NCBI GenBank assembly: GCA_937142855.1
Contig: CAKZQZ010000036.1
Coordinates: forward strand, 1-44,569
DNA length: 44,569 bases
From: an uncultured Alphaproteobacteria bacterium
Lineage (GTDB): Bacteria; Pseudomonadota; Alphaproteobacteria; Puniceispirillales; Marisalimonadaceae
Direction of reading: 5' to 3'
Of the stretch, positions 1,057 through 26,819 are shown piece after piece. The notes beneath the pieces were generated by a model. That model made no database searches. It had not been told where the DNA came from and worked only from the letters and a program-made list of their open reading frames with translations. Both the position numbers and the translations under genes were made by a program. Numbering within the stretch: the stretch's first letter is position 1; each line of letters starts with the position of its first letter.

Positions 1057-1575
1057 ATGAGCAGCAATATAATTCCAGGTAAAAAAGCACCACTTTTAAA
1101 TATTGATACTATCAGTGGAAACACTTGGTCGTTAGATATGTATTTAAATAAATCTAAATGTATGGTTGTGTTTTATAGGGGCTTACATTGTCCAGTTTGT
1201 TCTGTTTTTTTAAAGCAAATTGATAGTCAGTTGTTAGAATATAAAAAATCTAATACTCAAGTCATAGCCGTGTCTATGGATAATAAAGAAAAAGCTCTTA
1301 AAACAAAATCTGATTGGTCAATTAAAAATCTTAACATTGCCTACGGCCTAAGTGAAGACGATGCTAGGAAGTGGGGGCTTTATATTTCAAAGTCTATTAA
1401 GGAAGCCGAAAGCGATATATTCTGCGAACCTGGCTTATTTATAATAAGGGAAGATGGTACACTTTATCTTGCTAATACATCAAATATGCCATGGGCAAGA
1501 CCTGATTTAACTGATTTTCCAGCTAAACTTATATTTGCTGAGGAGAATAATTATCCAGTTAGAGGAAATTATTAA
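1057..1575 (+). CDS. AhpC/TSA-type peroxiredoxin-like protein
   Basis: A 172-residue thioredoxin-fold protein of the AhpC/TSA superfamily. Residues 5-35 give the opening strand (PGKKAPLLNIDTISG), followed by VVFYRGLHCPVC with Cys45 and Cys48, then VIAVSMDN and a late GLFIIREDGTLY strand. In classical peroxiredoxins the active site reads T-x-x-C; here it is a CxxC pair like that of the peroxiredoxin-like PRX_like families, which may make it a thioredoxin-like reductase or a one-site peroxidase. There is no signal peptide, so it is probably cytosolic and may detoxify organic hydroperoxides. The start sits behind AAAGGAT. It is convergent with the photolyase-family gene, with only 10 bases between the stops. 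Confidence 0.85.
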   Translation: MSSNIIPGKKAPLLNIDTISGNTWSLDMYLNKSKCMVVFYRGLHCPVCSVFLKQIDSQLLEYKKSNTQVIAVSMDNKEKALKTKSDWSIKNLNIAYGLSEDDARKWGLYISKSIKEAESDIFCEPGLFIIREDGTLYLANTSNMPWARPDLTDFPAKLIFAEENNYPVRGNY

Positions 1576-1585
1576 ACTATAAAAA

Positions 1586-3091
1586 TCAATTTGTTGAAGT
1601 TTTATTCTCTATAAATATTGATGCTTTTTCAAAAATTGAATTTTTCTTATCTTTATCCATTCTTTCTAAAGATTTTATCAATATTGAAAGCCTGGGGTTG
1701 GTTTTAAAGAAAGATAAATTGTCATTCATAAACTTCCAATACAAACCATCAACTATATCGCACCATGCATCCCTTTTGTAATTGCTCATTTTGAGTATAT
1801 AATTTGAACCACAAGAATAAGGTTTTGTAGCAAAAATGCCTCCATCAGCAAATGTACCCATTCCATAAACATTAGGAACCATTACCCAGTCAGAAGAGTC
1901 TACAAACATTTCCATAAACCATCTATAAATTTCATCAGGATGTATTCTTGAGAGATTCATTATATTACAAACAATCATTAACCTTGGAATATGATGTGTA
2001 TATCCATATTTCAAACAATCATTGATTACATCATCAAGAGGTTTGATGCCAGTTGTTCCTTCATACCAGTCTTTAGTTAATTTTCTATTATGTTGCCAAA
2101 AATTTAATTTTTTTTCCTCTCGACCTTTATAATGATAAATGCCTCTAATAAATTCTCTCCATCCTATTATTTGTCGAATGAAGCCCTCTAAAGAATTAAG
2201 CGGTACAGAGTTTTCTTTTGAATAATTAATAGCTCTTGTAATAATTTCTTTTGGAGTTAAAAGTCCCATATTAATAATGGGACTTAATGCGCTATGAAAT
2301 AGGAAATTATTATTGTCGATTATAGCGTCTTCATATGTTCCAAAATTATGAAATTTGGTCTGAAAAAATACTTCCATCCAACTCAAAGCATCCTCTCTAT
2401 TTGTTGGCATCCAAAGGTAATCAGAAGATCCTGGGTGATCTTTAAATATAATATTGATTTTTTCCTTTAGATCATTGATTTTATTGTCTTTTATAGTTTT
2501 TGGTGTTTCAGGTACATTGATATCCCTTGGAATTTTCTTTCTATTTTCTTCATCAAAAGACCATTTTCCTCCAATTGGTTTTGTATTTTCGTCAATTAAA
2601 ATTGACAGTTTAATCCTGATTTTTTGATAAAAACTTGCCATTCTAATTAAATTTTTTTGAGTATTTGCAAATTCTAAAAACTCAGATCTTGAAACTAGAA
2701 ACATTGGACTTTGTAACAATTTAGTTTGTATATTATTTGTGATTACGAATTTATTAAAAATATCTTCAAAGAAATGATCTTCGATTTCAAAATAGTTGAT
2801 CGTTTCAATTTTTTGGTCTTTTAAAATACTTAGTAATTTATCTTCATATGAAACTTTGAAATTTTTATCATCTATTGAGTAATAATAAACTATGTAGCCA
2901 TTCTCTATTAACTTGTCTCTATACTGCCTCATAGCCCATAAAAACATTAATATTTTTAGTTTATGGTGTTTATGATAGGTCGTTAAGCCAAAATCTTCGG
3001 CCATAAAAATTTTTTTTATTTTTGTCTTTTCTAAATACTCTAATGGAAAGAGCTGATTGCCTAAAATTAATAATAAATCATTATTTTGCAT
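1586..3091 (-). CDS. cryptochrome/photolyase-family protein (FeS-BCP clade), lacking two Fe-S ligands
   Basis: About 501 residues from the ATG at 3091; a GTG at 3112 (508 residues, overlapping the upstream stop) is also possible. It opens with the Rossmann-like antenna strand LLLILGNQLFP, has the R-QIIGWREFIRG motif in the middle and HHIPRLMIVCN, then MGTFADGG-FATKPY and KMSNYKRDAWCDI in the FAD-binding domain. This is the bacterial (6-4) photolyase/CryB-like group (COG3046), flavoproteins that repair UV lesions or sense blue light. Family members hold a 4Fe-4S cluster with four cysteines. Numbering from the GTG, Cys366 matches the first ligand and Cys451 probably the last, but the C-x-x-C segment between SNY and LYW is missing, about ten residues shorter than in Agrobacterium PhrB. 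It lies 7 bases downstream of the enolase-family gene, so the two are likely co-transcribed. Confidence 0.88.
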   Translation of the reverse strand: MQNNDLLLILGNQLFPLEYLEKTKIKKIFMAEDFGLTTYHKHHKLKILMFLWAMRQYRDKLIENGYIVYYYSIDDKNFKVSYEDKLLSILKDQKIETINYFEIEDHFFEDIFNKFVITNNIQTKLLQSPMFLVSRSEFLEFANTQKNLIRMASFYQKIRIKLSILIDENTKPIGGKWSFDEENRKKIPRDINVPETPKTIKDNKINDLKEKINIIFKDHPGSSDYLWMPTNREDALSWMEVFFQTKFHNFGTYEDAIIDNNNFLFHSALSPIINMGLLTPKEIITRAINYSKENSVPLNSLEGFIRQIIGWREFIRGIYHYKGREEKKLNFWQHNRKLTKDWYEGTTGIKPLDDVINDCLKYGYTHHIPRLMIVCNIMNLSRIHPDEIYRWFMEMFVDSSDWVMVPNVYGMGTFADGGIFATKPYSCGSNYILKMSNYKRDAWCDIVDGLYWKFMNDNLSFFKTNPRLSILIKSLERMDKDKKNSIFEKASIFIENKTSTN

Positions 3092-3098
3092 TTCTAAT

Positions 3099-4274
3099 TT
3101 ACTCAAACACACTTAATTTTGTTGTATTTGATTTAATAAAATCCCAATTATATTTAACGCCTAAACCCACACCACTAGGTACAGATACGCATCCATCAGT
3201 ACCTATACAGTCTATCATATCTGTGTATCCACATGTGTAAACTGGTGCCATTGTGTTTGGGCAGTCTGGGCCTACTAGTGCTACCTCATAAAAATTAGAA
3301 TTTCTTGTTGCAGCCATTACATGCCTATGTGCAGGGCCACATGCATGAACTTCTACATCAACTCCAAATGCTTCTGCCAAGTGAGAAATTTTCATAGCTC
3401 CAGTTATCCCCATATCATATTCAGGATCAGATCTTAAGAAATCAGTTCCTCCAGCAATTAAAAAATCACATTTGGTCTCAATACCCCTTATATGCTCTGT
3501 TTGTAAAATAGGTGTTTTTAACATTTCACGTAGTCGCTTGTGAGAAAATGCTGAAACACCGCTATCTCTATACGGATCTTCTAGCCAGAAATAACCGGCT
3601 TCGTCGCAAGCCCTTCCAACGTATAAAGCGTCTGCAAACGTTCTTAATTGACAGGCTGGATCAAGCATTAAAGTCATTTTATTGCCCACTTCTCTAGCAA
3701 CATGTAGGACATTTTCAGCTTCTTCTTTAGCATTACCTTCATGCCAGCCGTGAACCTTAAAAGCCCTGTATCCCATATCAAAACATTCATGAGCAAAATC
3801 ACTAAAAGCTTCTTTGCTATCAAGTCCGCCGTTTCTGTCTCCATGATAAGTACTTGCATATGCAGGTAAACGTTTTCTATAACCTCCCAATAAAACACCA
3901 ATAGAACAATTTAGGGATTTACCAGCCCAATCCCATAATGCAATATCTAGGGGGCCATGACCCATATGATCAAATTGTCTTAACTCTCTTTTGAAATCAT
4001 CATAAATTTTTTCTCTTTCTACTGCATTATATTCAAGTAATTTAGGGGCCAACATTTTTGTTTGTGCACAAGCTACTTGGTTCCCACCCCAATGAGTAAC
4101 GTATTCACCTCTGCAACCATCTTTAGTTTCTATTACAACAGCATATTTATCTAATTCAATTGATTGACCCTTAGCATAACCAACTGCACCGATAGTATTG
4201 GCATTTGTTAAAAGGCCAAGATTTTGTGCAATGTGTTTAAATTCGTGTATCTCAACTCTTTTAATTTGGCTCAT
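3099..4274 (-). CDS. mandelate racemase/muconate lactonizing enzyme family protein (enolase superfamily)
   Basis: 391 residues with the enolase-superfamily layout: an N-terminal capping domain to about residue 130, then a TIM barrel. Metal ligands are readable as Asp205 (MLDPACQ), Glu232 (WLEDPYRD) and Glu260 (LQTEHIRG). Asp283 or Asp287 and His310 (VEVHACG) fit the Asp-His dyad of the mandelate racemase/acid-sugar dehydratase groups. The usual K-x-K catalytic pair after the second strand is K-V-H (residues 173-175). Such enzymes abstract the proton alpha to a carboxylate and either racemise or dehydrate sugar acids; the substrate is unknown. It starts behind GAGG and is divergent from an LldD-like 2-hydroxyacid dehydrogenase, which suggests sugar-acid or hydroxyacid catabolism (inference). 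Confidence 0.87.
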   Translation of the reverse strand: MSQIKRVEIHEFKHIAQNLGLLTNANTIGAVGYAKGQSIELDKYAVVIETKDGCRGEYVTHWGGNQVACAQTKMLAPKLLEYNAVEREKIYDDFKRELRQFDHMGHGPLDIALWDWAGKSLNCSIGVLLGGYRKRLPAYASTYHGDRNGGLDSKEAFSDFAHECFDMGYRAFKVHGWHEGNAKEEAENVLHVAREVGNKMTLMLDPACQLRTFADALYVGRACDEAGYFWLEDPYRDSGVSAFSHKRLREMLKTPILQTEHIRGIETKCDFLIAGGTDFLRSDPEYDMGITGAMKISHLAEAFGVDVEVHACGPAHRHVMAATRNSNFYEVALVGPDCPNTMAPVYTCGYTDMIDCIGTDGCVSVPSGVGLGVKYNWDFIKSNTTKLSVFE

Positions 4275-4368
4275 TTATATTTTCCTCAAAAAAAATTGAA
4301 TAGACAAAATTATAAAAACTTATATGTTTTTTTATTTTAAATAATATTTATTTAAAACTACTTATTAC

Positions 4369-4374
4369 CATAAT
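4369..4374 (+). promoter_or_regulatory. possible -10 element for the lldD-like gene
   Basis: The 118-base divergent gap between the enolase-family gene and the lldD-like gene is almost pure AT. CATAAT matches the sigma-70 -10 consensus at five of six positions, 18 bases before the ATG, and would give a very short leader. No good -35 box precedes it at the right distance, and several other AT hexamers in the gap compete, so this is only a suggestion. Confidence 0.25.
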
Positions 4375-4392
4375 CCATGTAAAGGATATTAA

Positions 4393-5541
4393 ATGAATTT
4401 AAATGATTGTTATAATTTTCAAGACTTTAGAAAATTAGCTAAAAAACGTCTTCCTTCACCTATTTTCCATTATATAGATGGCGCCGCTGATGACGAAGTT
4501 ACTTACAATAGAAATACCGCAGCTTATAATGATGCAGATTTAATACCAAATGTGCTCAGGGGCGTTGAAAACGTTGATTTATCAACCACAATATTTGGTA
4601 AAAAATTAGACTTACCATTTTATTGTGCACCTACTGCCTTGCAGAGATTATTTCATTACGAAGGTGAAAGGGCTGTAGGTAAAGCAGCTCAAAAATTTGG
4701 AACCATGTTTGGTGTTTCATCATTAGGCACAGTTAGCGTTGAAGAAATTGCTTCTATTGTTTCCACACCTAAAATGTTTCAATTTTATTTTCATAAAGAT
4801 AGAGGCTTAAATGATAGTATGCTTGAAAGAGTAAAAGCTGCAAAATTTGATGTCTTAGCTCTAACGGTAGATACAATCACAGGGGGAAACCGTGAGAGAG
4901 ATCTTAGGACTGGATTTACTTCTCCACCTAGATTAACTCTATCTAGCCTCTTTAGCTTTGCTTCTAAGCCAATGTGGGCAATAAATTATCTTACAAAACC
5001 AAAATTTGAGCTTCCACAATTACAAGATCATGTTAGTGAAGGAACGAACACGGCAACATCTATAGGATCATATTTTTCTTCTATGTTAGATCAATCAATG
5101 AATTGGAAGGATGCTGAACAGCTTTGTTCAAAATGGGGTGGTCATTTTGCTCTTAAAGGCATCATGAGTGTTGAAGATGCAAAGAAAGCTGTCGATATAG
5201 GATGTACTGGCATAATGGTGTCTAATCATGGAGGCAGGCAGCTAGATGGAGCAAGGGCACCTTTTGATCAACTAGCAGAAATAGTTGATGCAGTTGGTGA
5301 TAAGATAGATGTTATTTGTGAGGGAGGAATTCAGCGAGGCACTCACATATTAAAAGCTTTGTCAGTAGGAGCAAAGGCATGCTCAGGTGGAAGGATGTAT
5401 CTTTATGGTCTTGCTTCTGCTGGGCAGGCTGGTGTTGAGAGAGCATTGAGTTTGTATAAAGCTGAACTTGAGAGAGACATGAAATTAATGGGTTGTACTA
5501 ATATTAAAGAATTAAATAGATCTAATATTAAATTTAGATGA
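4393..5541 (+). CDS. lldD: FMN-dependent alpha-hydroxy-acid dehydrogenase, L-lactate dehydrogenase-like
   Basis: 382 residues, the family's usual length. It starts with the FQDFRKLAKKRLPSPIFHYI helix typical of LldD and glycolate oxidase, has YCAPTALQRLFH and GVSSLGTVSVEEIA in the FMN-binding barrel, Lys255 (ALKGIMS), the catalytic SNHGGRQLDG with His279 and Arg282, and the late EGGIQRGTHILKALSVGA phosphate-binding region. These enzymes oxidise L-2-hydroxyacids such as L-lactate or glycolate to the 2-oxoacid. The electron acceptor may be quinone or oxygen; the loop that would decide (about 175-230) is not distinctive to me. The start is behind AAAGGA. The next gene overlaps by four bases (ATGA), so translation is coupled. 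The exact substrate, and therefore the gene symbol, is uncertain. Confidence 0.87.
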   Translation: MNLNDCYNFQDFRKLAKKRLPSPIFHYIDGAADDEVTYNRNTAAYNDADLIPNVLRGVENVDLSTTIFGKKLDLPFYCAPTALQRLFHYEGERAVGKAAQKFGTMFGVSSLGTVSVEEIASIVSTPKMFQFYFHKDRGLNDSMLERVKAAKFDVLALTVDTITGGNRERDLRTGFTSPPRLTLSSLFSFASKPMWAINYLTKPKFELPQLQDHVSEGTNTATSIGSYFSSMLDQSMNWKDAEQLCSKWGGHFALKGIMSVEDAKKAVDIGCTGIMVSNHGGRQLDGARAPFDQLAEIVDAVGDKIDVICEGGIQRGTHILKALSVGAKACSGGRMYLYGLASAGQAGVERALSLYKAELERDMKLMGCTNIKELNRSNIKFR

Positions 5542-6221
5542 ATTTAATCAATACATATATAAAACCATTATCTAAAATTTTTCTTATTACCTCAGTTCCT
5601 CATACCTCTTGGAGTGCGTTAAAAACAGAATTTTTTAGACCAAGGTTGAAAACATTTTTTTCCCTTTGTTTTGGTTTGTTTATTTTCGGTTTAGGAGAGA
5701 GTGTATTAGTTATTTCTAATAACGGAGTAACACCATGGACAGTTTTAGCAGAGGGTGTTGCTGAAAAGATAGATGTTGGTATAGGTCTTTCTACTTTTAT
5801 TATTAGCGTTTTGGTATTTTTATTGTGGGTTCCTCTTAAATTAAAACCAGGAATTGGGACAATAATGAATATTTTTATTATTGCGATGACAATGGGCGGG
5901 GTAATACCACATTTATATTTTTTAAATAATATTTTAGACCCTCTGTTTTTGTCATTTTTGGGAACTTTTTTAGTAGGTCTAGGAAGTGGCATTTATTTGA
6001 TTGCTAACCTTGGCCCAGGCACAAGAGATGGCCTAATGACAGGTATATCAAAAAAATATGGTAAGCCAATAAGTCTTGTAAGGTTTACAATTGAGTTTTC
6101 AGTAGTGTTAGTTGGATGGATTTTGGGTGGAACTCTAGGAATAGGTACCATTATATTTGCAGTTTTTATTGGTCCTTTTGTTTCTATTAGTTTAAAACTT
6201 GTATCGTCTCTGTATAAATAA
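5538..6221 (+). CDS. YczE/YitT-like integral membrane protein
   Basis: 227 residues with five or so membrane helices. Diagnostic stretches are SNNGVTPWTVLAEGVA (about 67-82) and IANLGPGTRDGLMTG (about 154-168), the paired N/D-LG-x-x-PWD and LGPG-x-RDGLM motifs of the YczE/YyaS family of inner-membrane proteins of unknown transport role. The start overlaps the stop of the lldD-like gene (ATGA), so the two are made together. This suggests a role linked to hydroxyacid use, for instance moving a substrate or product, but no family member known to me has a proven substrate. It is convergent with the TauE-like gene, two bases apart. Confidence 0.75.
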   Translation: MNLINTYIKPLSKIFLITSVPHTSWSALKTEFFRPRLKTFFSLCFGLFIFGLGESVLVISNNGVTPWTVLAEGVAEKIDVGIGLSTFIISVLVFLLWVPLKLKPGIGTIMNIFIIAMTMGGVIPHLYFLNNILDPLFLSFLGTFLVGLGSGIYLIANLGPGTRDGLMTGISKKYGKPISLVRFTIEFSVVLVGWILGGTLGIGTIIFAVFIGPFVSISLKLVSSLYK

Positions 6222-6223
6222 CT

Positions 6224-6964
6224 TTAAATTGTTTTTAAAAACAAAGATATACCTAGAACTATTAAAGTAAAGAGTACCAAATTTCTAAATTGTTTATGAT
6301 TAATTTTGTCTCTTATTTTTGTTCCTATCTGTTGGGATATAAAAGCTGGTATTATTAAAATCAAACTAAAAATTAGATCTTCTTTTGTTGCAAATCCATA
6401 ATAAATTAAAGATCCATAAAGAGGAAAAGAACCAATAAAATACATTGTAGACACAGTTCTTACAAATTTTTCTTTTGGCAAATCAACTGCAACTAAATAT
6501 GCAAGCATAGGTGGACCATAAAATGTTGAAAGTCCTCCTAAAATTCCTGAGCCAAAACCAATAATTGTAGTTATGATCTTTTCATAATTTTGTTTTATAT
6601 TATTTATTTTGAAACCAAAACAATTGACTAATGCAGCAAAAATGATTGAGACAGCAATTATTTGAGTAATGGTGTTTATATCTATCTCTAAGATTAATCG
6701 GGCTCCAATTATTAAGCCAACTACAAGACTTAAAAACATGGGTAAAAATCTGTAACTACTTACCCCTTCTTTAAATTTTATTTGTAAAAAATTTGTTAAA
6801 AAAATGGGGGCACAAAGAAGAATCATTGCTGTTGTAGGTGGTATTATGAAGGCGATTATTGGTAAAGCAACCATTGGCATTCCAAAACCTAATGTTCCTT
6901 TAACAAGACCACCTGCCAGTACTGCTAAAATAATAACTAAAACTATAGAAGGATCATTATACAT
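6224..6964 (-). CDS. TauE/SafE (TSUP) family sulfite/anion exporter-like permease
   Basis: 246 residues, seven or eight hydrophobic helices. The N-terminal LAGGLVKGTLGFGMPMVALP (about 16-35) and the second-half repeat GFGSGILGGLSTFYGPPMLA (about 136-155) are the paired signature repeats of the TSUP family. Members move sulfite, sulfoacetate, sulfolactate or other anions across the inner membrane; the substrate cannot be read from sequence. There is no strong ribosome site before ATG 6964. No sulfonate-degrading gene is nearby, so the neighbourhood does not help assign a substrate. It is divergent from the nitroreductase gene across an 82-base AT-rich gap. Confidence 0.85.
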   Translation of the reverse strand: MYNDPSIVLVIILAVLAGGLVKGTLGFGMPMVALPIIAFIIPPTTAMILLCAPIFLTNFLQIKFKEGVSSYRFLPMFLSLVVGLIIGARLILEIDINTITQIIAVSIIFAALVNCFGFKINNIKQNYEKIITTIIGFGSGILGGLSTFYGPPMLAYLVAVDLPKEKFVRTVSTMYFIGSFPLYGSLIYYGFATKEDLIFSLILIIPAFISQQIGTKIRDKINHKQFRNLVLFTLIVLGISLFLKTI

Positions 6965-7046
6965 TGTGTGTCTTTAAAAAAAATGTAATTAATATAGTTG
7001 TTTGTATTATTTTAATTAACATGTAAAGTTTTTTTATTTTTATATA

Positions 7047-7622
7047 ATGAATGAAATAATAAATTTTTTAAAAAAAAGAAGATCCGTCACAGCTAAAGCC
7101 ATGAATGATGGTCAAGTAAGTTTAGACCATTTAAATGAAATTTTAGAATGTGGTCTTAGAGTTCCAGATCATGGTGCGTTAAACCCATGGAAAATCACTG
7201 TAATTCAAGGTGAGGCAAAAAAAAGAATTGGTAATGAAATTCTTGCTAAAGAGTATAAATTATCAAATCCTGAAGCTAGTAATGATGATTTGGATTATGA
7301 AAAAAATAGGTTAAATAGAGCTGCCATTGTAATTGTTGTTCTATGTACACCTGTCTTCCATCCTAAAATTCCTAAATGGGAAATGGAACTTTCAAGTGGT
7401 GCAGTGTGTTCAAATTTATTAATTGCAGCACAATCCTTAGGTTATGCTGCTCAATGGCTAACTGAATGGTATTCTTATAATCAAAATGTATTAAAAGAGT
7501 TTGGGGGAGATCCTAAAACTGATAAAATTGCTGGATTTATCTACATCGGAAATAAACAAAAAGAACCTGTAGAAAGAAGAAGGCCTATCAAAAATAAAAT
7601 AATAAGCTTTATAGATAAATGA
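7047..7622 (+). CDS. nitroreductase family protein, YdjA-like
   Basis: 191 residues, the short nitroreductase length. It opens with FLKKRRSVTAKAMNDG, whose Arg pair binds the FMN phosphate, then LRVPDHGALNPWKITVI, which matches the APDHG-x-x-PW motif of E. coli YdjA, and ends with GFIYIG-x-KQKEPVERRRP. These small FMN enzymes work as dimers and reduce nitro or quinone compounds with NAD(P)H, though YdjA's natural substrate is unknown. No Shine-Dalgarno precedes the ATG; the bases just before it read TATATA, so the leader may be short or the start unusual. It is convergent with the dehydratase gene, two bases between stops. Confidence 0.88.
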   Translation: MNEIINFLKKRRSVTAKAMNDGQVSLDHLNEILECGLRVPDHGALNPWKITVIQGEAKKRIGNEILAKEYKLSNPEASNDDLDYEKNRLNRAAIVIVVLCTPVFHPKIPKWEMELSSGAVCSNLLIAAQSLGYAAQWLTEWYSYNQNVLKEFGGDPKTDKIAGFIYIGNKQKEPVERRRPIKNKIISFIDK

Positions 7623-7624
7623 TT

Positions 7625-8608
7625 TTAAATAGTATCAATTTTAAAACATTGTTCAAAAACATCCTTATCAACGTTTCCACCAGATGCAATTACTAGCACG
7701 TTTTTTTCTCTAACATCAATTTTAGAGGTAATGGCCGCTGCAAGGGCTACTGCACCACCAGGTTCAAGAATTATTTTAAAATATTTGAAAGCAGCATGCA
7801 TTGCCATAAGAGACTCTTTATCTGATACTGATAGTCCAGCTGTTAAATTTTTTTGGTTAATTTCAAATGTTATATTACCAGGCTTCTCGGCTAAGAGTGC
7901 GTCACATATTGATTGGTCACGCATAGAATTCGTTACTATTTTATTAGCTTCTAGAGATTTTTTTGTATCATCAAAATTATCAGGTTCAACAGAATAAATT
8001 TTAGAATTTTTAAATTTTTCTTTAATTGCAGTACTTATGCCTGCTATTAACCCACCACCTCCACAACAGCAAAGTACAATATCTGGTTTTACATTTTTAA
8101 TTTCTAGTTGTTCAATACATTCTAAGCCAGTTGTACCTTGACCATTTATAACATCAATATGATCAAATGGGGGTATTATAGCAGCATTTGTTTTGTTAGC
8201 TATTTCCCTTCCAATTTGTTCTCTATCTTCTTTTTTTCTATCATATTTAATAATTGAAGCACCCCAAAAAGCGGTTCCTTCTAACTTTGCTTTTGGAGAA
8301 TCTATTGGCATTACTATTGTTGCCTCTCTGCCAGTTATTTTAGCCGCAGCAGCAACAGCTTGAGCATGGTTACCACTAGACCATGCAACAACTTTTTTGA
8401 TATTATCCGGTAGCTGTAAGACGGCATTCAAAGCGCCTCTATACTTAAAAGCTCCAATTGTTTGTAAATTTTCTGCTTTTAAAAAAAGGTTTGTTTTAAA
8501 TTTTTGATTTAAATATGAAGATTGTAAAAGAGGGGTTTTAACAACTTTATCTTTCAATCTATTTGATGAATTCATTATTTCATTGAATGAAACTTTTCGG
8601 TCTGTCAT
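7625..8608 (-). CDS. threonine/serine dehydratase-like PLP enzyme (fold type II)
   Basis: 327 residues, catalytic domain only, without the C-terminal ACT-like regulatory domain of IlvA. Lys55 in the AFKYRGA motif forms the PLP Schiff base, SSGNHAQ (79-85) binds the substrate carboxylate, and CCGGGGLIAG (about 181-190) holds the cofactor phosphate. The size and motifs fit a catabolic threonine dehydratase (TdcB-like), serine racemase or 3-hydroxyaspartate ammonia-lyase; these cannot be separated by eye. The likely reaction is L-threonine or L-serine to 2-oxobutyrate or pyruvate plus ammonia. The start is behind AGAGGT. It is transcribed away from dapA. Confidence 0.88.
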   Translation of the reverse strand: MTDRKVSFNEIMNSSNRLKDKVVKTPLLQSSYLNQKFKTNLFLKAENLQTIGAFKYRGALNAVLQLPDNIKKVVAWSSGNHAQAVAAAAKITGREATIVMPIDSPKAKLEGTAFWGASIIKYDRKKEDREQIGREIANKTNAAIIPPFDHIDVINGQGTTGLECIEQLEIKNVKPDIVLCCCGGGGLIAGISTAIKEKFKNSKIYSVEPDNFDDTKKSLEANKIVTNSMRDQSICDALLAEKPGNITFEINQKNLTAGLSVSDKESLMAMHAAFKYFKIILEPGGAVALAAAITSKIDVREKNVLVIASGGNVDKDVFEQCFKIDTI

Positions 8609-8639
8609 TGTTTACCTCTAAACATTTTAATAGTATGTC

Positions 8640-8668
8640 TTGTTAAATTTATTTCACATGATTATGAT
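8640..8668 (+). promoter_or_regulatory. sigma-70-type promoter for dapA-smpB
   Basis: TTGTTA (8640-8645), a 17-base spacer and TATGAT (8663-8668) lie 33 bases before the dapA start in the divergent gap. The -35 matches consensus at four of six positions and the -10 at five of six, with ideal spacing. It is likely to drive dapA and the genes after it. Confidence 0.55.
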
Positions 8669-20434: not shown

Positions 20435-21535
20435 ATGAAACGTCGTGATTTTATAAATAAAGCTGGATTAGGGATTGCTACAGGAGCAGTTGCTGCTTCT
20501 GCTTTATCAACACCTGCTTTAGCTCAATCAAAAAAAACAATTACAATAGTGTCTACTTGGCCAAGAGACTTTCCTGGCTTAGGAACTTCAGCCCAAAGAT
20601 TAGCAGCCAGAATCACTGAATTATCAAAAGGAGCACTTACAACTGAGTATTTCGCTGCTGGCGAAAAAGTTGGTGCATTTGACGTTTTTGATGAAGTTGC
20701 ATCAGGAAATTCTACCGCATATATTGCTGCTGACTATTACTGGGTTGGAAAACATCCTGGGTTTGCATATTTCACTTCTGTTCCATTTGGAATGACAATG
20801 GTAGAATGGAATGCTTGGATCAAATTTAATGGTGGTCAACAATTATGGGATGAAATATCTGGTGAGTTTGGATTGAAAGCGCTTACCTGTGGAGGAACAG
20901 GAACTCAAGCAGGTGGCTGGTTTAACAAAGAAATAAATTCTGCAGATGATCTCAAAGGGTTAAAAATGAGAATTCCTGGTCTTGGCGGTAAGGTAATGTC
21001 AAAATTAGGTGCATCAACAGTATCACTGCCTGGTGGTCAAATATATGAAAATCTTGTGTCAGGCGCCATAGACGCGACTGAATGGGTAGGTCCTTATAAT
21101 GACTACTTTATGAAGTTTTATGAAGCTGCTAAATTTTATTACACAGGAGGTATGCATGAGCCTGGTGGTGGTTTAGCATTTGCTTTTAATGCAAGTTTTT
21201 GGGGTAGTCTCAGTGACTGGGAAAAGTCAATAATTGAAGCCGCTGCAATGGAAGAAAATGCTGCACAATTTGAAGAATGTGTTGCTAATAATGGAAAGTA
21301 TTTATCAAAACTCGTAAATGATCATGGCGTTCAAATAAGGTCATTTGGCGATGATACTTGGGATTCATTTGGTAGGGCAGCTGCAGAAGTTTTTGAAGAA
21401 ACTAGAGATCATTCTGCTCTTGCAGCAAAAATTGATACTTCATTCCAGAAAAACCTTCGTGAAATTGGTGGTTTTATGGCCAATTTTGAAACTACATTCC
21501 TAAATCAAAGAAATAGAGTTTTAGGATTAGTTTAA
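20435..21535 (+). CDS. TRAP transporter substrate-binding protein, TakP-like
   Basis: 366 residues with a twin-arginine-type leader: RRDFINKAGLG (3-13), a hydrophobic stretch and a cleavage site near ALA-Q (28-31). The mature part has KMRIPGLGGKV (177-187, the conserved substrate-carboxylate arginine region), LPGGQIYENL and GAIDATEWVGPYNDY (210-224), then GGMHEPGGG. These match the family of Rhodobacter TakP and Thermus lactate-binding protein, which bind 2-oxo or hydroxy monocarboxylates, often with a cation; ligand choice here is an inference. It works in the periplasm with the DctQ and DctM proteins that follow. A very strong ribosome site fits the high expression usual for binding proteins. 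Confidence 0.92.
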   Translation: MKRRDFINKAGLGIATGAVAASALSTPALAQSKKTITIVSTWPRDFPGLGTSAQRLAARITELSKGALTTEYFAAGEKVGAFDVFDEVASGNSTAYIAADYYWVGKHPGFAYFTSVPFGMTMVEWNAWIKFNGGQQLWDEISGEFGLKALTCGGTGTQAGGWFNKEINSADDLKGLKMRIPGLGGKVMSKLGASTVSLPGGQIYENLVSGAIDATEWVGPYNDYFMKFYEAAKFYYTGGMHEPGGGLAFAFNASFWGSLSDWEKSIIEAAAMEENAAQFEECVANNGKYLSKLVNDHGVQIRSFGDDTWDSFGRAAAEVFEETRDHSALAAKIDTSFQKNLREIGGFMANFETTFLNQRNRVLGLV

Positions 21536-21592: not shown

Positions 21593-22561
21593 ATGGAGAA
21601 TTTATTGGTTAAAAGTGATATTTTAATTAATAAAAATTTATTTGCTAATCGCTTTTTAGGTTGGTTCTTAATTAACGCTCTCGTTGCTTTCATGATTAAT
21701 AATATTTTGTATTTAACTTTTAACATACCATTTGCAATAGACTTCATATTCAAAAACGACATTTTTGCTATTATTCCGACATTCATCTATTTGATTGCTT
21801 TTGGTTTATCCTTCTTTATTGCCTTAAAAAATTCTCATAAATCTTACATATGGGATGCAGACTTATTACATAATTTTAATCTTTACTTTATTAGATCCTG
21901 TTTTTGGTCAGTTTTTCTAATTGGATCCATAGATGTAATAATTGCATTTATGCGAGTTGAAGAAGTTTCTAATATGATTTTTAATGACGAACTTGTTAGG
22001 GCTCTAAAAAAACCAAGTTTTGTTTGTACATTTGTTCATATTCCTCTTGTTTTTATTAGTTTTGTTATTGGTTATTTTAGCAAAACATTAGGTTTTACTT
22101 GGTTAGCTTTGATGATTGTTTGTGCAGAATTAATAATTGTAATCACAAGATTTGTATTTTCGTATGAACAATCCTTTATGGGAGATTTAGTAAGATATTG
22201 GTATGCAGCACTTTTCCTTTTTGCTTCTGCTTATACCTTGTTTGAAGATGGGCATGTTAGAGTAGATGTATTTTATACAAATTTAAAAGTTAAAACTAAA
22301 TCTTTTGTAAATGCAACCGGGTCTATTTTTCTTGGTATATCAACATGTATTGCAATATTATTTGTTGGTTTTAACGGTAAACAATCAATCATTAATAGTC
22401 CTATATTAAATTTTGAAATTACTCAGACTGGTAGTGTGGGTATGTTTGTTAAGTATCAGTTGGCAGCTTTTTTAGGAATTTTCGCTATATCTATGTTAGT
22501 TCAGTTTGTTAGTTATTATTTTTCATCACTTGCAAAGATGAATGAATTAAAAGAGAGTTGA
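21593..22561 (+). CDS. TRAP transporter small permease (DctQ) with four extra N-terminal helices
   Basis: 322 residues, almost twice the usual DctQ length. About eight membrane segments are visible, near residues 22-44, 57-79, 97-119, 141-161, 166-188, 200-220, 243-263 and 285-310. The last four carry the DctQ pattern, including YWYAALFLFASAYTLFEDGHVRVDVFY. The first four are an added module. Long DctQ proteins of this kind go with TakP-type binding proteins. ATG 21593 has a poor ribosome site; a TTG at 21605 lies seven bases after GGAG and could be used. DctM starts four bases after the stop. Confidence 0.85.
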   Translation: MENLLVKSDILINKNLFANRFLGWFLINALVAFMINNILYLTFNIPFAIDFIFKNDIFAIIPTFIYLIAFGLSFFIALKNSHKSYIWDADLLHNFNLYFIRSCFWSVFLIGSIDVIIAFMRVEEVSNMIFNDELVRALKKPSFVCTFVHIPLVFISFVIGYFSKTLGFTWLALMIVCAELIIVITRFVFSYEQSFMGDLVRYWYAALFLFASAYTLFEDGHVRVDVFYTNLKVKTKSFVNATGSIFLGISTCIAILFVGFNGKQSIINSPILNFEITQTGSVGMFVKYQLAAFLGIFAISMLVQFVSYYFSSLAKMNELKES

Positions 22562-22565
22562 CGTT

Positions 22566-25220
22566 TTGGAACTTTTATTTTTATTAATTCTTATATTAAC
22601 AATGGCAGTAGCATTAGGCTCTGGATTTCCTGTAGCGTTTGCCCTACCAGGATCTGCGATCTTGTCTATATCACTTGCTGCTATATGTGGTCTTATTTTT
22701 GAAAATAATTTAGATGCTTATTTTCATTCTGGGAGTGCCTCTCAGTGGATTTCAGCTGGTGTCACCAATTTGAGAGGTATTTATTGGGAAGTAGAAAGAG
22801 ATACTTTAATAGCAATCCCATTATTTATTTTTATGGGCATTATGCTACAGCGATCTAAAATAGCAGAAGATTTGTTGGTAACAATGGCACAACTTTTTGG
22901 AAGAGTGCCAGGTGGTTTAGGAATTTCAGTTGTTTTTGTCGGTGCATTACTAGCTGCAACAACAGGCATTGTTGGTGCCACAGTTGTTGCTATGGGGTTA
23001 ATTTCATTACCTGCAATGTTGAGAAATAATTATTCTCCATCTTTAGCTACTGGGACAATAGCTGCATCTGGTACATTAGGTCAAATAATCCCACCATCTA
23101 TTGTTTTAATAATTTTAGCTGATCAACTAGCTTCAGCAACTGATCAAGCTAGTACGCTTAGAAAAAATCTTTTTAAAGAAAATACTGGTGAATTAATGAT
23201 GCCATCTGTATTTGATGTGACTTCAACAAGCGCAGGTGAAATGTTTTTAGGCGCATTCCTACCTGGATTAGTCTTAGTTGGTCTTTATATGTTGTTTATT
23301 TTAATTCTTGCTTTACTTTTTCCTAAAACTGCCCCCGCAGTTCCTTATGATGGTAAAGTTGACAAAAGTTTTTGGATAAAGGTTTTTCTTACTCTTGTGC
23401 CGCCATTAACATTAATAATAATTGTTTTAGGATCTATTATTACTGGCATAGCAACTGTAAACCAAGCTGGTGCAATAGGAGCTGCTGGCGCTATTGTTAT
23501 GGCAGGCTATAGACTTCAAAGCTCCTCTAAAACAGCTTTTTATCCTGCTTTTATATTAATTGTTTCATTGGCGTTGATTACTTATTCATTAATTAACTAT
23601 GAAATGAATGTTAAAGCTGCAGATACAGCAGAAGATAAAATTGGAATTTTTATTGGTGCCATAGGGGCGCTACTTTTAATTATTTCTCTTATTTGGAGTG
23701 GAGTTAGATTATTTGATGCTGAAAATACAATGAAAGGAGTTATGTTAGAAACAGCTAAAACAACTTCATTAGTATTTATCATTCTTCTTGGTGCTGCAAT
23801 GTTAACAGCAGCCTTTAGAGCTTTTGGTGGAGAAGATTTAGTAAGAGATTACTTGAATTCTTTAGCTGGTGGATTCTGGACAAAATTCATTGTAGTTATG
23901 GCCGTTATATTTATTTTAGGCTTTTTCTTAGATTTTATAGAAATAGCAGTTGTAGTTGTTCCCATTGTTGCACCAATTTTGTTAGCTGATCCATCTGCTA
24001 ATATTACAGCGGTTTGGTTGGGTGTAATGATTGGACTAAATATACAAACCTCCTTTCTTACTCCACCATTTGGTTTTGCTCTTTTTTACCTTCGTGGTGT
24101 TGCTCCTGCTATAGTAAAAACTGTCCAAATGTATAAAGGTGTTATACCATTTATTACTTTGCAGTTATTAGCACTTGCTGTTGTTGGGTTATATCCATCT
24201 TTAGTGAATTATTTACCAAACAGAGTAAGTTTTCTTTCTGAAACGTCTCCACCACCCAAAAACCCTAAATTACAATACTGTATAGAAGAATATGTAAGAG
24301 AAAATGTACTTACGGACAATAATGACGTTAAAAATGCAATTTTCAAAGCTAGTGAAATTGATAGAGAAACTTTGCCTAAATCATATCAATTGTTACTAAC
24401 AAAATCCATAAGTGACGTTACCAAGGGAATAGAACACCTGAGCCAAGCTTTTAATATTGAAAAAGAAATAAATAAAAAATCATTGGATTATGAGCCACAA
24501 TTATTATTTGTTAGAAATATCGAGAAAGATATAAGATCTATTGAAAAAGAAACAAAAGAAATAAAAGTACTGATATCAAGACTGTCAACAAATCAAGATG
24601 ATGAAGAAAAAATTTTACAAAAAAAATTAATTGCTAAAAATACGTTAATCGAAAAATATAGATCTCAAATACCTAAAGATTGGCCAAGTAGGTATAAAGA
24701 ATTTCAGTCTCTAATCAAAAAAGAAAAAATTGAGAGATCTAAGTATAGAAGATTAATGGATGGGTCTTATAACGAAATTTTTAAACTCTATTCAGTTATT
24801 AGCCTTAAGGATATGTTCTTTAAATTTGAAACTAAATTCAACATTATATCTACTAAATTAGAAACTAATGATCCTTCAGAATTAATTAAAGAAATTAAAT
24901 TGCTTACAAGAGAATTGAGTAAAATTCCAGATAATAGAAATATAATTTCAAGTTTAAATAAGTCTGTTAGAAATTTAAAAAAGAAAAAAGTTGATTATGT
25001 TAAAATCAAAAAAGATTTCGAAACAGCTTATATGTTATACGTCCAGAAAAGTAATGATTTAAAGGTAATTGATAACAGAGTTGTATCTGAATTAGATAAT
25101 TATTTAAAAACTGTTTCAACTTCGATTGGGGTAAGGCAACAAAGTAAATTACCTAGAGAATTGGCTCTTTACCTCGCAAACTGTAGGGCTTCTCATAAAA
25201 ACCTTACTCTGTTCTTTTAA
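22566..25220 (+). CDS. TRAP transporter large permease (DctM) with a long C-terminal coiled-coil tail
   Basis: 884 residues from a TTG behind GAGAG. Residues 1 to about 551 are membrane: SGFPVAFALPG (19-29), PLFIFMGIMLQRSKIAEDLL (85-104), the GTLGQIIPPSI motif (169-179) and SFLTPPFGFALFYLRG (496-511) are DctM hallmarks, and residues 316-380 add two helices not found in short DctM proteins. After residue 552 the protein changes to about 333 charged, Lys/Glu-rich residues with several coiled-coil stretches (645-700, 757-835) and no membrane segment. This is the channel-forming, Na+-driven subunit. The tail's function is unknown to me. There is no frameshift or start signal at the junction, so it is one polypeptide. 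Confidence 0.88.
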   Translation: MELLFLLILILTMAVALGSGFPVAFALPGSAILSISLAAICGLIFENNLDAYFHSGSASQWISAGVTNLRGIYWEVERDTLIAIPLFIFMGIMLQRSKIAEDLLVTMAQLFGRVPGGLGISVVFVGALLAATTGIVGATVVAMGLISLPAMLRNNYSPSLATGTIAASGTLGQIIPPSIVLIILADQLASATDQASTLRKNLFKENTGELMMPSVFDVTSTSAGEMFLGAFLPGLVLVGLYMLFILILALLFPKTAPAVPYDGKVDKSFWIKVFLTLVPPLTLIIIVLGSIITGIATVNQAGAIGAAGAIVMAGYRLQSSSKTAFYPAFILIVSLALITYSLINYEMNVKAADTAEDKIGIFIGAIGALLLIISLIWSGVRLFDAENTMKGVMLETAKTTSLVFIILLGAAMLTAAFRAFGGEDLVRDYLNSLAGGFWTKFIVVMAVIFILGFFLDFIEIAVVVVPIVAPILLADPSANITAVWLGVMIGLNIQTSFLTPPFGFALFYLRGVAPAIVKTVQMYKGVIPFITLQLLALAVVGLYPSLVNYLPNRVSFLSETSPPPKNPKLQYCIEEYVRENVLTDNNDVKNAIFKASEIDRETLPKSYQLLLTKSISDVTKGIEHLSQAFNIEKEINKKSLDYEPQLLFVRNIEKDIRSIEKETKEIKVLISRLSTNQDDEEKILQKKLIAKNTLIEKYRSQIPKDWPSRYKEFQSLIKKEKIERSKYRRLMDGSYNEIFKLYSVISLKDMFFKFETKFNIISTKLETNDPSELIKEIKLLTRELSKIPDNRNIISSLNKSVRNLKKKKVDYVKIKKDFETAYMLYVQKSNDLKVIDNRVVSELDNYLKTVSTSIGVRQQSKLPRELALYLANCRASHKNLTLFF

Positions 25221-25226
25221 TTAACA

Positions 25227-26819
25227 ATGCTTACCGCAACAATGTCATATAAAAATATGATGGTAGCACCTCATCACCTTGCTGCAAAAACTGGTTCGGA
25301 TATTCTTAAAGAAGGTGGAAATGCTGTAGAAGCGATGATTGCATCTGCCGCCATGATATCTGTTGTTTATCCACACATGAATTCTATGGGTGGCGATAAT
25401 TTTTGGTTAATTTCTGACAAAAACAAAAAAGTTAAATCAATCGATGCTTGTGGTGGTGTAGCTAATTCCGTCTCAATAGATTTTTATAAACAAAAAGGTT
25501 ATAATTCTATTCCTTCTCGTGGTCCTTTGGCTGCATTAACAGTTCCTGGAGCCGTTTCTGGATGGAAAATGGCTTACGATTATAGTGTAAAAGAACTAGG
25601 TGGTAAATTATCATTAGAAAGACTATTGCTAGATGCTGCAGAAGCGTCAAAAGAAGGTATAGCAGTTACTAATACCTTAAGAAATAATCTTCAAGCGAAA
25701 GCTCATCAATTAGAAGATATACCCAACTTTAAAGATATTTATTTTAAAGATGGAAAAATTCCAAACGTAGGTGATAAATTACAGTTTAATGCAATGTCAA
25801 AAACATTTTCATCACTAATTAAAAATGGTTTAGATGATTTCTATAGTGGAGAAATTGCAGAAGATATTTTGTCTGATTTAGAAACTTTAGGCTCTCCTCT
25901 TAAAAAAATAGATTTTGATAATTATGCTGCGTCTTTTGTAAATCCATTAGAGCTTGAGATAAAAGATGCAAAGCTATTTAATTTACCACCTCCAACTCAA
26001 GGTCTTGCTTCTATATTAATTTTAGGTGTTCTTGACGAGTTAACAGATAAATATGAAAATGATACTGACTTGATACATAAAATTGTTGAAGCCACTAAAG
26101 TTGTTTTTAAAATTAGGGATAAATATGTTTGTGATCCTAATTATATGACGAAAAAAACCTCTGATTTTCTCAACAAAGATTTTATTAGACAATTAGTCAA
26201 CAAAATAGATTTAAACAAAGCCTTGCCATGGCCAGATGCTAACGTAGGAGGTGATACTGTCTGGCTTGGTGCCTCTGACTCATACGGAAACACAGTCAGT
26301 TTCATTCAAAGTATTTACTGGGAATTTGGTTCTGGTTTAATTCTACCTAAAACTGGGATAACTATGCAAAATAGGGGAATTAGTTTTTCCTTAGATGAAG
26401 AAAATTTTAATAAGTTATTACCATCTAGAAAACCTTTCCATACTATACAACCTGCTTTGGCCCACTTTAATGATGGTAGAGTGATGGCATATGGTACTAT
26501 GGGTGGAGAAGGACAGCCACAAACTCAAGCTACAATTTTTTTGCGTTATGCTATTCAAAATTTAGATCTTCAAAAAGCAATTAATGAACCTAGATGGCTT
26601 TTAGGAAGAACTTGGGGTGATGAAACAACATCCCTTAAAATTGAAGGTAGATTTAATAATTCTACCCTTGCTGATCTAAAAAATTTAGGACATATTATTG
26701 AAAAAGTTGGAGATTTTGAAGAAATTATGGGGCATGCTGGTGCTATTGTGGATCATCCTAATGGTTTAAAAGAGGGTGGGTATGATTTGCGTAGCGATGG
26801 AGATGCAGTTGGTGGTTAG
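25227..26819 (+). CDS. gamma-glutamyltransferase (gamma-glutamyltranspeptidase)-family protein
   Basis: 530 residues. Early GGNAVEAMIAS and GGDNFWLI (30-62) are N-terminal GGT motifs. The likely self-cleavage nucleophile is Thr344 in VGGDTVWLGASDSYGNTVSF, followed by the MGGEGQPQTQ oxyanion region (425-434). GGT-family enzymes are Ntn hydrolases that cut themselves and then hydrolyse or transfer gamma-glutamyl groups. No signal peptide is visible, whereas classical GGT is periplasmic, so this may be a cytosolic amidohydrolase of the wider family. It begins seven bases after dctM, so it may act on the imported compound (inference). It ends tail-to-tail with bpt with no base between. Confidence 0.87.
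   Translation: MLTATMSYKNMMVAPHHLAAKTGSDILKEGGNAVEAMIASAAMISVVYPHMNSMGGDNFWLISDKNKKVKSIDACGGVANSVSIDFYKQKGYNSIPSRGPLAALTVPGAVSGWKMAYDYSVKELGGKLSLERLLLDAAEASKEGIAVTNTLRNNLQAKAHQLEDIPNFKDIYFKDGKIPNVGDKLQFNAMSKTFSSLIKNGLDDFYSGEIAEDILSDLETLGSPLKKIDFDNYAASFVNPLELEIKDAKLFNLPPPTQGLASILILGVLDELTDKYENDTDLIHKIVEATKVVFKIRDKYVCDPNYMTKKTSDFLNKDFIRQLVNKIDLNKALPWPDANVGGDTVWLGASDSYGNTVSFIQSIYWEFGSGLILPKTGITMQNRGISFSLDEENFNKLLPSRKPFHTIQPALAHFNDGRVMAYGTMGGEGQPQTQATIFLRYAIQNLDLQKAINEPRWLLGRTWGDETTSLKIEGRFNNSTLADLKNLGHIIEKVGDFEEIMGHAGAIVDHPNGLKEGGYDLRSDGDAVGG

Follow-up and report, generated by a model that had tools for sequence, protein, structure and literature searches.

A conserved, predicted periplasmic tail on the DctM subunit of alphaproteobacterial TRAP transporters is inherited together with an enlarged DctQ

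The stretch of DNA analyzed in this study (44,569 nucleotides, hereafter the window) comes from a SAR116-type genome, as judged by its nearest loci, and carries a TRAP transporter operon on its forward strand. The first of its genes encodes the periplasmic substrate-binding protein DctP (20435-21535, 366 aa), which has a Tat-type RR signal and was identified by PF03480 and by structure matches (4pet_A, E 2.9e-63; 7ug8, E 2.7e-61; TakP 2hzk_A, E 6.4e-58); among its relatives of known structure are binders of keto acids and of lactate. The small membrane subunit DctQ (21593-22561, 322 aa) is enlarged: the PF04290 DctQ match spans residues 181-305 only, and residues 1-152 (21593-22048) constitute an N-terminal extension with about four hydrophobic segments, for which no Pfam match was found. 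With dctP and dctQ directly upstream, dctM is one continuous open reading frame (22566-25220, 884 aa), and its TTG start lines up with an ATG in relatives. A GGT-like gene (25227-26819) follows in the same direction after a gap of 6 bp. Based on these similarities, we describe the system as a TRAP transporter with a TakP-like binding protein, a predicted keto-acid-type relative.

The membrane domain of DctM comprises residues 1-551 (22566-24218) and is assigned to the TRAP elevator fold by PF06808, whose match (209.1 bits against a cut-off of 23.8) is confined to this part, and by VIA-align alignment to PpSiaM (7qha_B). The remaining 333 residues (552-884; 24219-25217) follow in the same reading frame as a hydrophilic tail. 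An earlier, sequence-only reading of this DNA had described an unbroken tail of about this length, devoid of hydrophobic segments and rich in Lys and Glu, and our results bear out each of these points: the last predicted transmembrane (TM) helix ends near residue 542; the maximum hydropathy of the tail over 19 residues is 0.61, and it thus contains no hydrophobic segment; and Lys and Glu amount to 13.8% and 8.7% of the tail, compared with 2.7% and 2.5% of the membrane part. The heptads proposed in that reading for residues 645-700 and 757-835 fared less well, their periodicity being weak when compared with shuffled sequences (p=0.06 and p=0.15, respectively; p=0.03 for the helix at 605-672), and a simple coiled coil was rejected on these grounds. 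A helical hairpin plus a four-helix bundle is the better description of the modeled tail. Nor does the tail correspond to a known annotated domain: residues 552-884 of the window DctM gave no significant Pfam or NCBIfam match, the other tailed members matched scattered coiled-coil families only, with no consistent Pfam or NCBIfam domain over the tail, and no specific match to any Pfam, NCBIfam, or PDB family was obtained.

Full-length relatives of the tailed DctM are present throughout the window's order, and the tailed relatives among the matches listed include Rhodobacteraceae, Rhizobiales, Sneathiella, Geminicoccaceae, and others. In our class sample, 32 of the 385 genomes have a tail match, one of them (G333) weak and chance-like. 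The DctMs of this sample with a membrane-part identity of at least 60% are encoded in open frames of 838-960 aa, apart from two cases at contig ends (G000:C34 and G067), and no DctM with an identity of 51% or less has a tail. Outside the class, the tail was not found in the phylum sample, apart from one weak coiled-coil match, and the plasmid records contained no match to a Rhodobacteraceae tail. We also considered the tail as an independent mobile domain and rejected this possibility, given that the tail profiles matched these DctMs only, apart from two weak matches in unrelated frames (5.7e-4 and 1.7e-4). In the membrane-domain tree, a single change accounts for the presence of the tail (SH-aLRT 100), in a topology whose outgroup branches are very long and whose root beyond the sister group is unsure. 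The tail was gained once and is obligate in its clade, a large and predominantly marine group of alphaproteobacteria; it is not a general property of TakM-type DctMs, since those of the sister group are tailless.

The length of the tail is near-constant, most tailed proteins having 878-888 aa, and this conservation, together with the residues that are invariant across the class (see below), indicates that the tail is not a product of chance. Between families its identity drops to 20-30%, as against about 70-80% over most of the membrane part. In close pairs, the pairwise dN/dS of the tail is 0.07-0.28, compared with 0.014-0.043 for the membrane part; the tail is under purifying selection.

A pairing that the sequence-only reading missed concerns DctQ. 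A long DctQ, of at least 305 aa, was found in all 75 assessable tailed loci out of 80 named ones; in the other five, DctQ could not be assessed owing to contig ends (L073, L074, and L134), the lack of a DctQ in range (L122), or a frame break (L113), the tblastn match in this last locus nevertheless spanning residues 20-234. The DctQ proteins of tailless and outgroup systems have 171-238 aa in 18 of 18 assessable loci and match the C-terminal half only; two further loci, to a total of 20, were ambiguous (L195) or had no DctQ found (L207). The DctQ extension is therefore present with tailed DctMs and absent with tailless ones; it is co-inherited with the DctM tail and arose in the same clade. 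Across the sampled loci, dctP and dctQ are the only flanking genes conserved with the tail, and no third conserved neighbor was found. Separately, 32 DctP residues specific to tailed systems were considered as a link to the tail and discarded, as they were indistinguishable from shared ancestry.

To place the tail with respect to the membrane, we relied on homologous structures. The N-terminus of DctM is periplasmic (PMC5812351), HiSiaQM consists of 15 TM helices and two hairpins and M-P fusions occur in nature (both PMC9352664), and the C-terminus of FnSiaQM has been placed on the periplasmic side (PMC11801797). Residues 6-556 of our DctM model align with nearly the whole length of PpSiaM (7qha_B; VIA-align Z 39.9, rmsd 2.8, 424 aligned residues). 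The window DctM has two extra TM helices in a cytoplasmic loop (residues 322-384; 23529-23717), which it shares with the tailless sister group and which, being even in number, leave the side of the C-terminus unchanged. With the helices assigned to TM2-TM11, HP1, and HP2 from sequence repeats and helix order rather than from coordinates, the loops contain 0.107 Lys/Arg per residue inside and 0.044 outside. The termini of the SiaQM/IseQM homologues, the fold alignment, the even number of extra helices, and the loop bias together make a periplasmic location of the tail the most likely one. We regard this location, combined with the module anatomy presented below, as highly probable.

The structural model of DctM was built with AlphaFold on a 123-row alignment (pLDDT 90.4, pTM 0.85), which replaced a run with 16 close sequences whose membrane part was poor. 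In the model, the tail is made up of a helical base, a long hairpin arm (helices 605-672 and 678-746; 24378-24803), and a four-helix-bundle module (residues about 752-837; 24819-25076); an arm helix has 68 residues, and the arm would be about 100 A long if straight. Among 94 tailed sequences, P563, N566, C572, W706, C873, and F884 are invariant, and P562, P567, V649, R650, G855, R857, and H877 are near-invariant. The tail also has a conserved linker with Cys572 (PPPKNPKLQYC, residues 560-572; 24243-24281) and a C-terminal docking segment (25122-25217) that contains Cys873, His877 (93/94), and the terminal Phe884. Cys572 and Cys873 are present in 94/94 sequences, and no other position has a Cys in more than 11 of them; this invariant pair suggests that a disulfide probably closes the base of the tail. 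The C-terminus is also predicted to touch the elevator. Only two residues in the whole model, 479 and 878, are classified by DSSP as bridge residues, and each is therefore expected to be the partner of the other. The loop between HP2 and TM10 to which residue 479 belongs (residues 475-481, DPSANIT; 23988-24008) is situated at the periplasmic side of the elevator. It has a three-residue insertion specific to tailed proteins at 476-478, gapped in 27 of 29 tailless rows, and N479 is present in 94/94 tailed sequences. The 479-878 contact is predicted from this single AlphaFold model.

Natural deletions follow the same modules: the bundle is absent in L209-L213 and the distal arm (about 643-698) in L101 and L103, and none of these has lost either cysteine or the C-terminal segment. 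Of the tail as modeled within DctM, only residues about 745-835 gave fold matches, to four-helix bundles of a generic kind (Z 9-10.7); no match to the tail as a whole rose above the background of helical bundles. Individual matches to HPt, to a cytochrome b562 fusion, and to the TorS sensor were dismissed as common helical arrangements. In L213 (1-1638), two adjacent DctP genes, one of them truncated where the stretch ends, lie downstream of the bundle-less tailed DctM.

Several known TRAP systems resemble the one described here. Residues 1-556 of the window DctM have the same elevator fold as SiaQM and IseQM (7qha, 8thi, 9pym; PF06808; VIA-align Z 32-40), to which it adds two mid TM helices, a periplasmic loop insertion, and the 333-residue C-terminal domain. 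Its DctP is related to TakP of TakPQM (2hzk; PMC1839085) and equals it in length, including the C-terminal stretch that in TakP forms the dimerization helix. The passages on TakP considered here make no mention of a tail. The TakPQM-type sisters share the DctP type and the two-TM insertion, but their DctQ is short and their DctM has no tail. Natural M-P fusions also exist, such as that of Acidaminococcus intestini (G4Q5D7, PMC9352664), which likewise has a periplasmic domain on the M subunit; in the fusion, however, this domain is the binding protein itself, whereas the window encodes a helical domain on DctM and a DctP of its own. The open-licence literature on TRAP C-terminal extensions and periplasmic coiled coils contained no earlier account of such a tail; within that literature, the tail is an undescribed domain present in many alphaproteobacterial genomes, and the N-terminal membrane extension of DctQ is likewise undescribed.

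We propose that the elevator-mounted periplasmic tail and the enlarged DctQ provide an extra docking surface for the TakP-like binding protein, a statement to which, as a whole, we assign a probability of about 0.5. According to this proposal, the tail would emerge at the periplasmic face from the final helix of the moving (elevator) domain, its base would probably be closed by the Cys572-Cys873 disulfide, and its C-terminus would fold back on the HP2-TM10 loop of its own elevator domain, a mounting suggested by the model. The hairpin arm and the four-helix bundle would project from this base and, with the enlarged DctQ, capture or hold the binding protein, probably a dimer, on the transporter, so that the movement of the docked protein would be coupled to that of the elevator. 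In the model of HiSiaPQM (PMC9352664), the binding protein has its N-lobe seated on the stator, and the elevator carries its C-lobe. Any periplasmic domain mounted on the elevator would lie beside that C-lobe, and the hypothesis that we favor is accordingly one of docking or holding. Taken by itself, this role falls somewhat short of even odds. The rapid divergence of the tail between families fits a spacer equally well, and two of its submodules are dispensable in nature. Furthermore, sister systems without a tail rely on a DctP of the same type, so transport with such binding proteins does not require the tail. A stronger version, in which the tail and the enlarged DctQ would act as a mast keeping a binding-protein dimer near-permanently on the transporter, is doubtful; if true, it would represent a TRAP architecture between the tripartite systems with a free P component and the M-P fusions.

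It is important to consider that TRAP transporters are a main uptake route for organic acids in marine bacteria and that the engagement of the binding protein with the elevator is an open question in the field. This clade, in which both membrane subunits gained parts together at the docking face, can be compared directly with its tailless sister clade, and the association of the tail with an always-enlarged DctQ points to a modified delivery complex.

The joint inheritance of the tail and the DctQ extension might also reflect oligomerization, with the extension lying between two QM units in the membrane and the arms pairing to form a dimeric TRAP; the arm is a long helical hairpin, and, going by the titles of 8thi and 8thj, HiSiaQM has been deposited in both a parallel and an antiparallel form. 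We consider this unlikely, given that the tail is modeled with high confidence as a monomer whose C-terminus folds back onto its own elevator domain and that deletions have shortened it without visible loss of the DctQ extension. Less likely still is that the tail anchors the transporter to a periplasmic or envelope structure or recruits a periplasmic partner: the reach of the arm and a divergence of the kind usual in scaffolds would suit such a function, but no third gene accompanies the tail, no peptidoglycan- or envelope-binding domain was consistently found with Pfam or NCBIfam, and the tail appears to be tied to the elevator at either end. This last feature, together with the retention of the base and its Cys pair in all natural variants, would agree with a tail that regulates the elevator itself, clamped between TM11 and the HP2-TM10 loop as a lid, brake, or periplasmic gate and making no contact with DctP; we judge this improbable, as it leaves the arm, the bundle, and the co-inherited DctQ extension unexplained. 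The sequence-only reading had suggested that the tail scaffolds, anchors, or regulates the transporter, which is consistent with our data, or that it recruits the adjacent GGT-like enzyme, which is very improbable: the two genes are 6 bp apart and co-directional, adjoining ones occur in SAR116 and nearby ones in L113, L115, and L127 (Planktomarina and Flavimaricola among these loci), and L119 has a weaker GGT relative on the other strand, but co-occurrence fails beyond SAR116 and these few loci, GGT is absent from most tailed loci examined and lies outside the conserved system, and its protein start has no evident hydrophobic signal peptide, at odds with a tail predicted to be periplasmic.

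Several individual loci merit separate mention. L215 (2545-4896) encodes another enlarged TRAP of a different kind: its DctM of 784 aa has a central insertion of ~190 residues and did not match the tail, and its DctQ has 314 aa. In L214 (2662-2702), the frames of DctM and the tail overlap but differ; the change of frame falls on a poly-C run at the PPP codons and is probably an assembly error and possibly slippage. The window's genome has a second tailed DctM (L040; G000:C34:3-1859), 71% identical in the membrane part, which is truncated by the contig end. Finally, in the Sneathiella loci L097, L116, L128, and L146 (about 1200-8650), the tailed operon is immediately preceded by a gene for a tailless DctM, which runs in the opposite direction.
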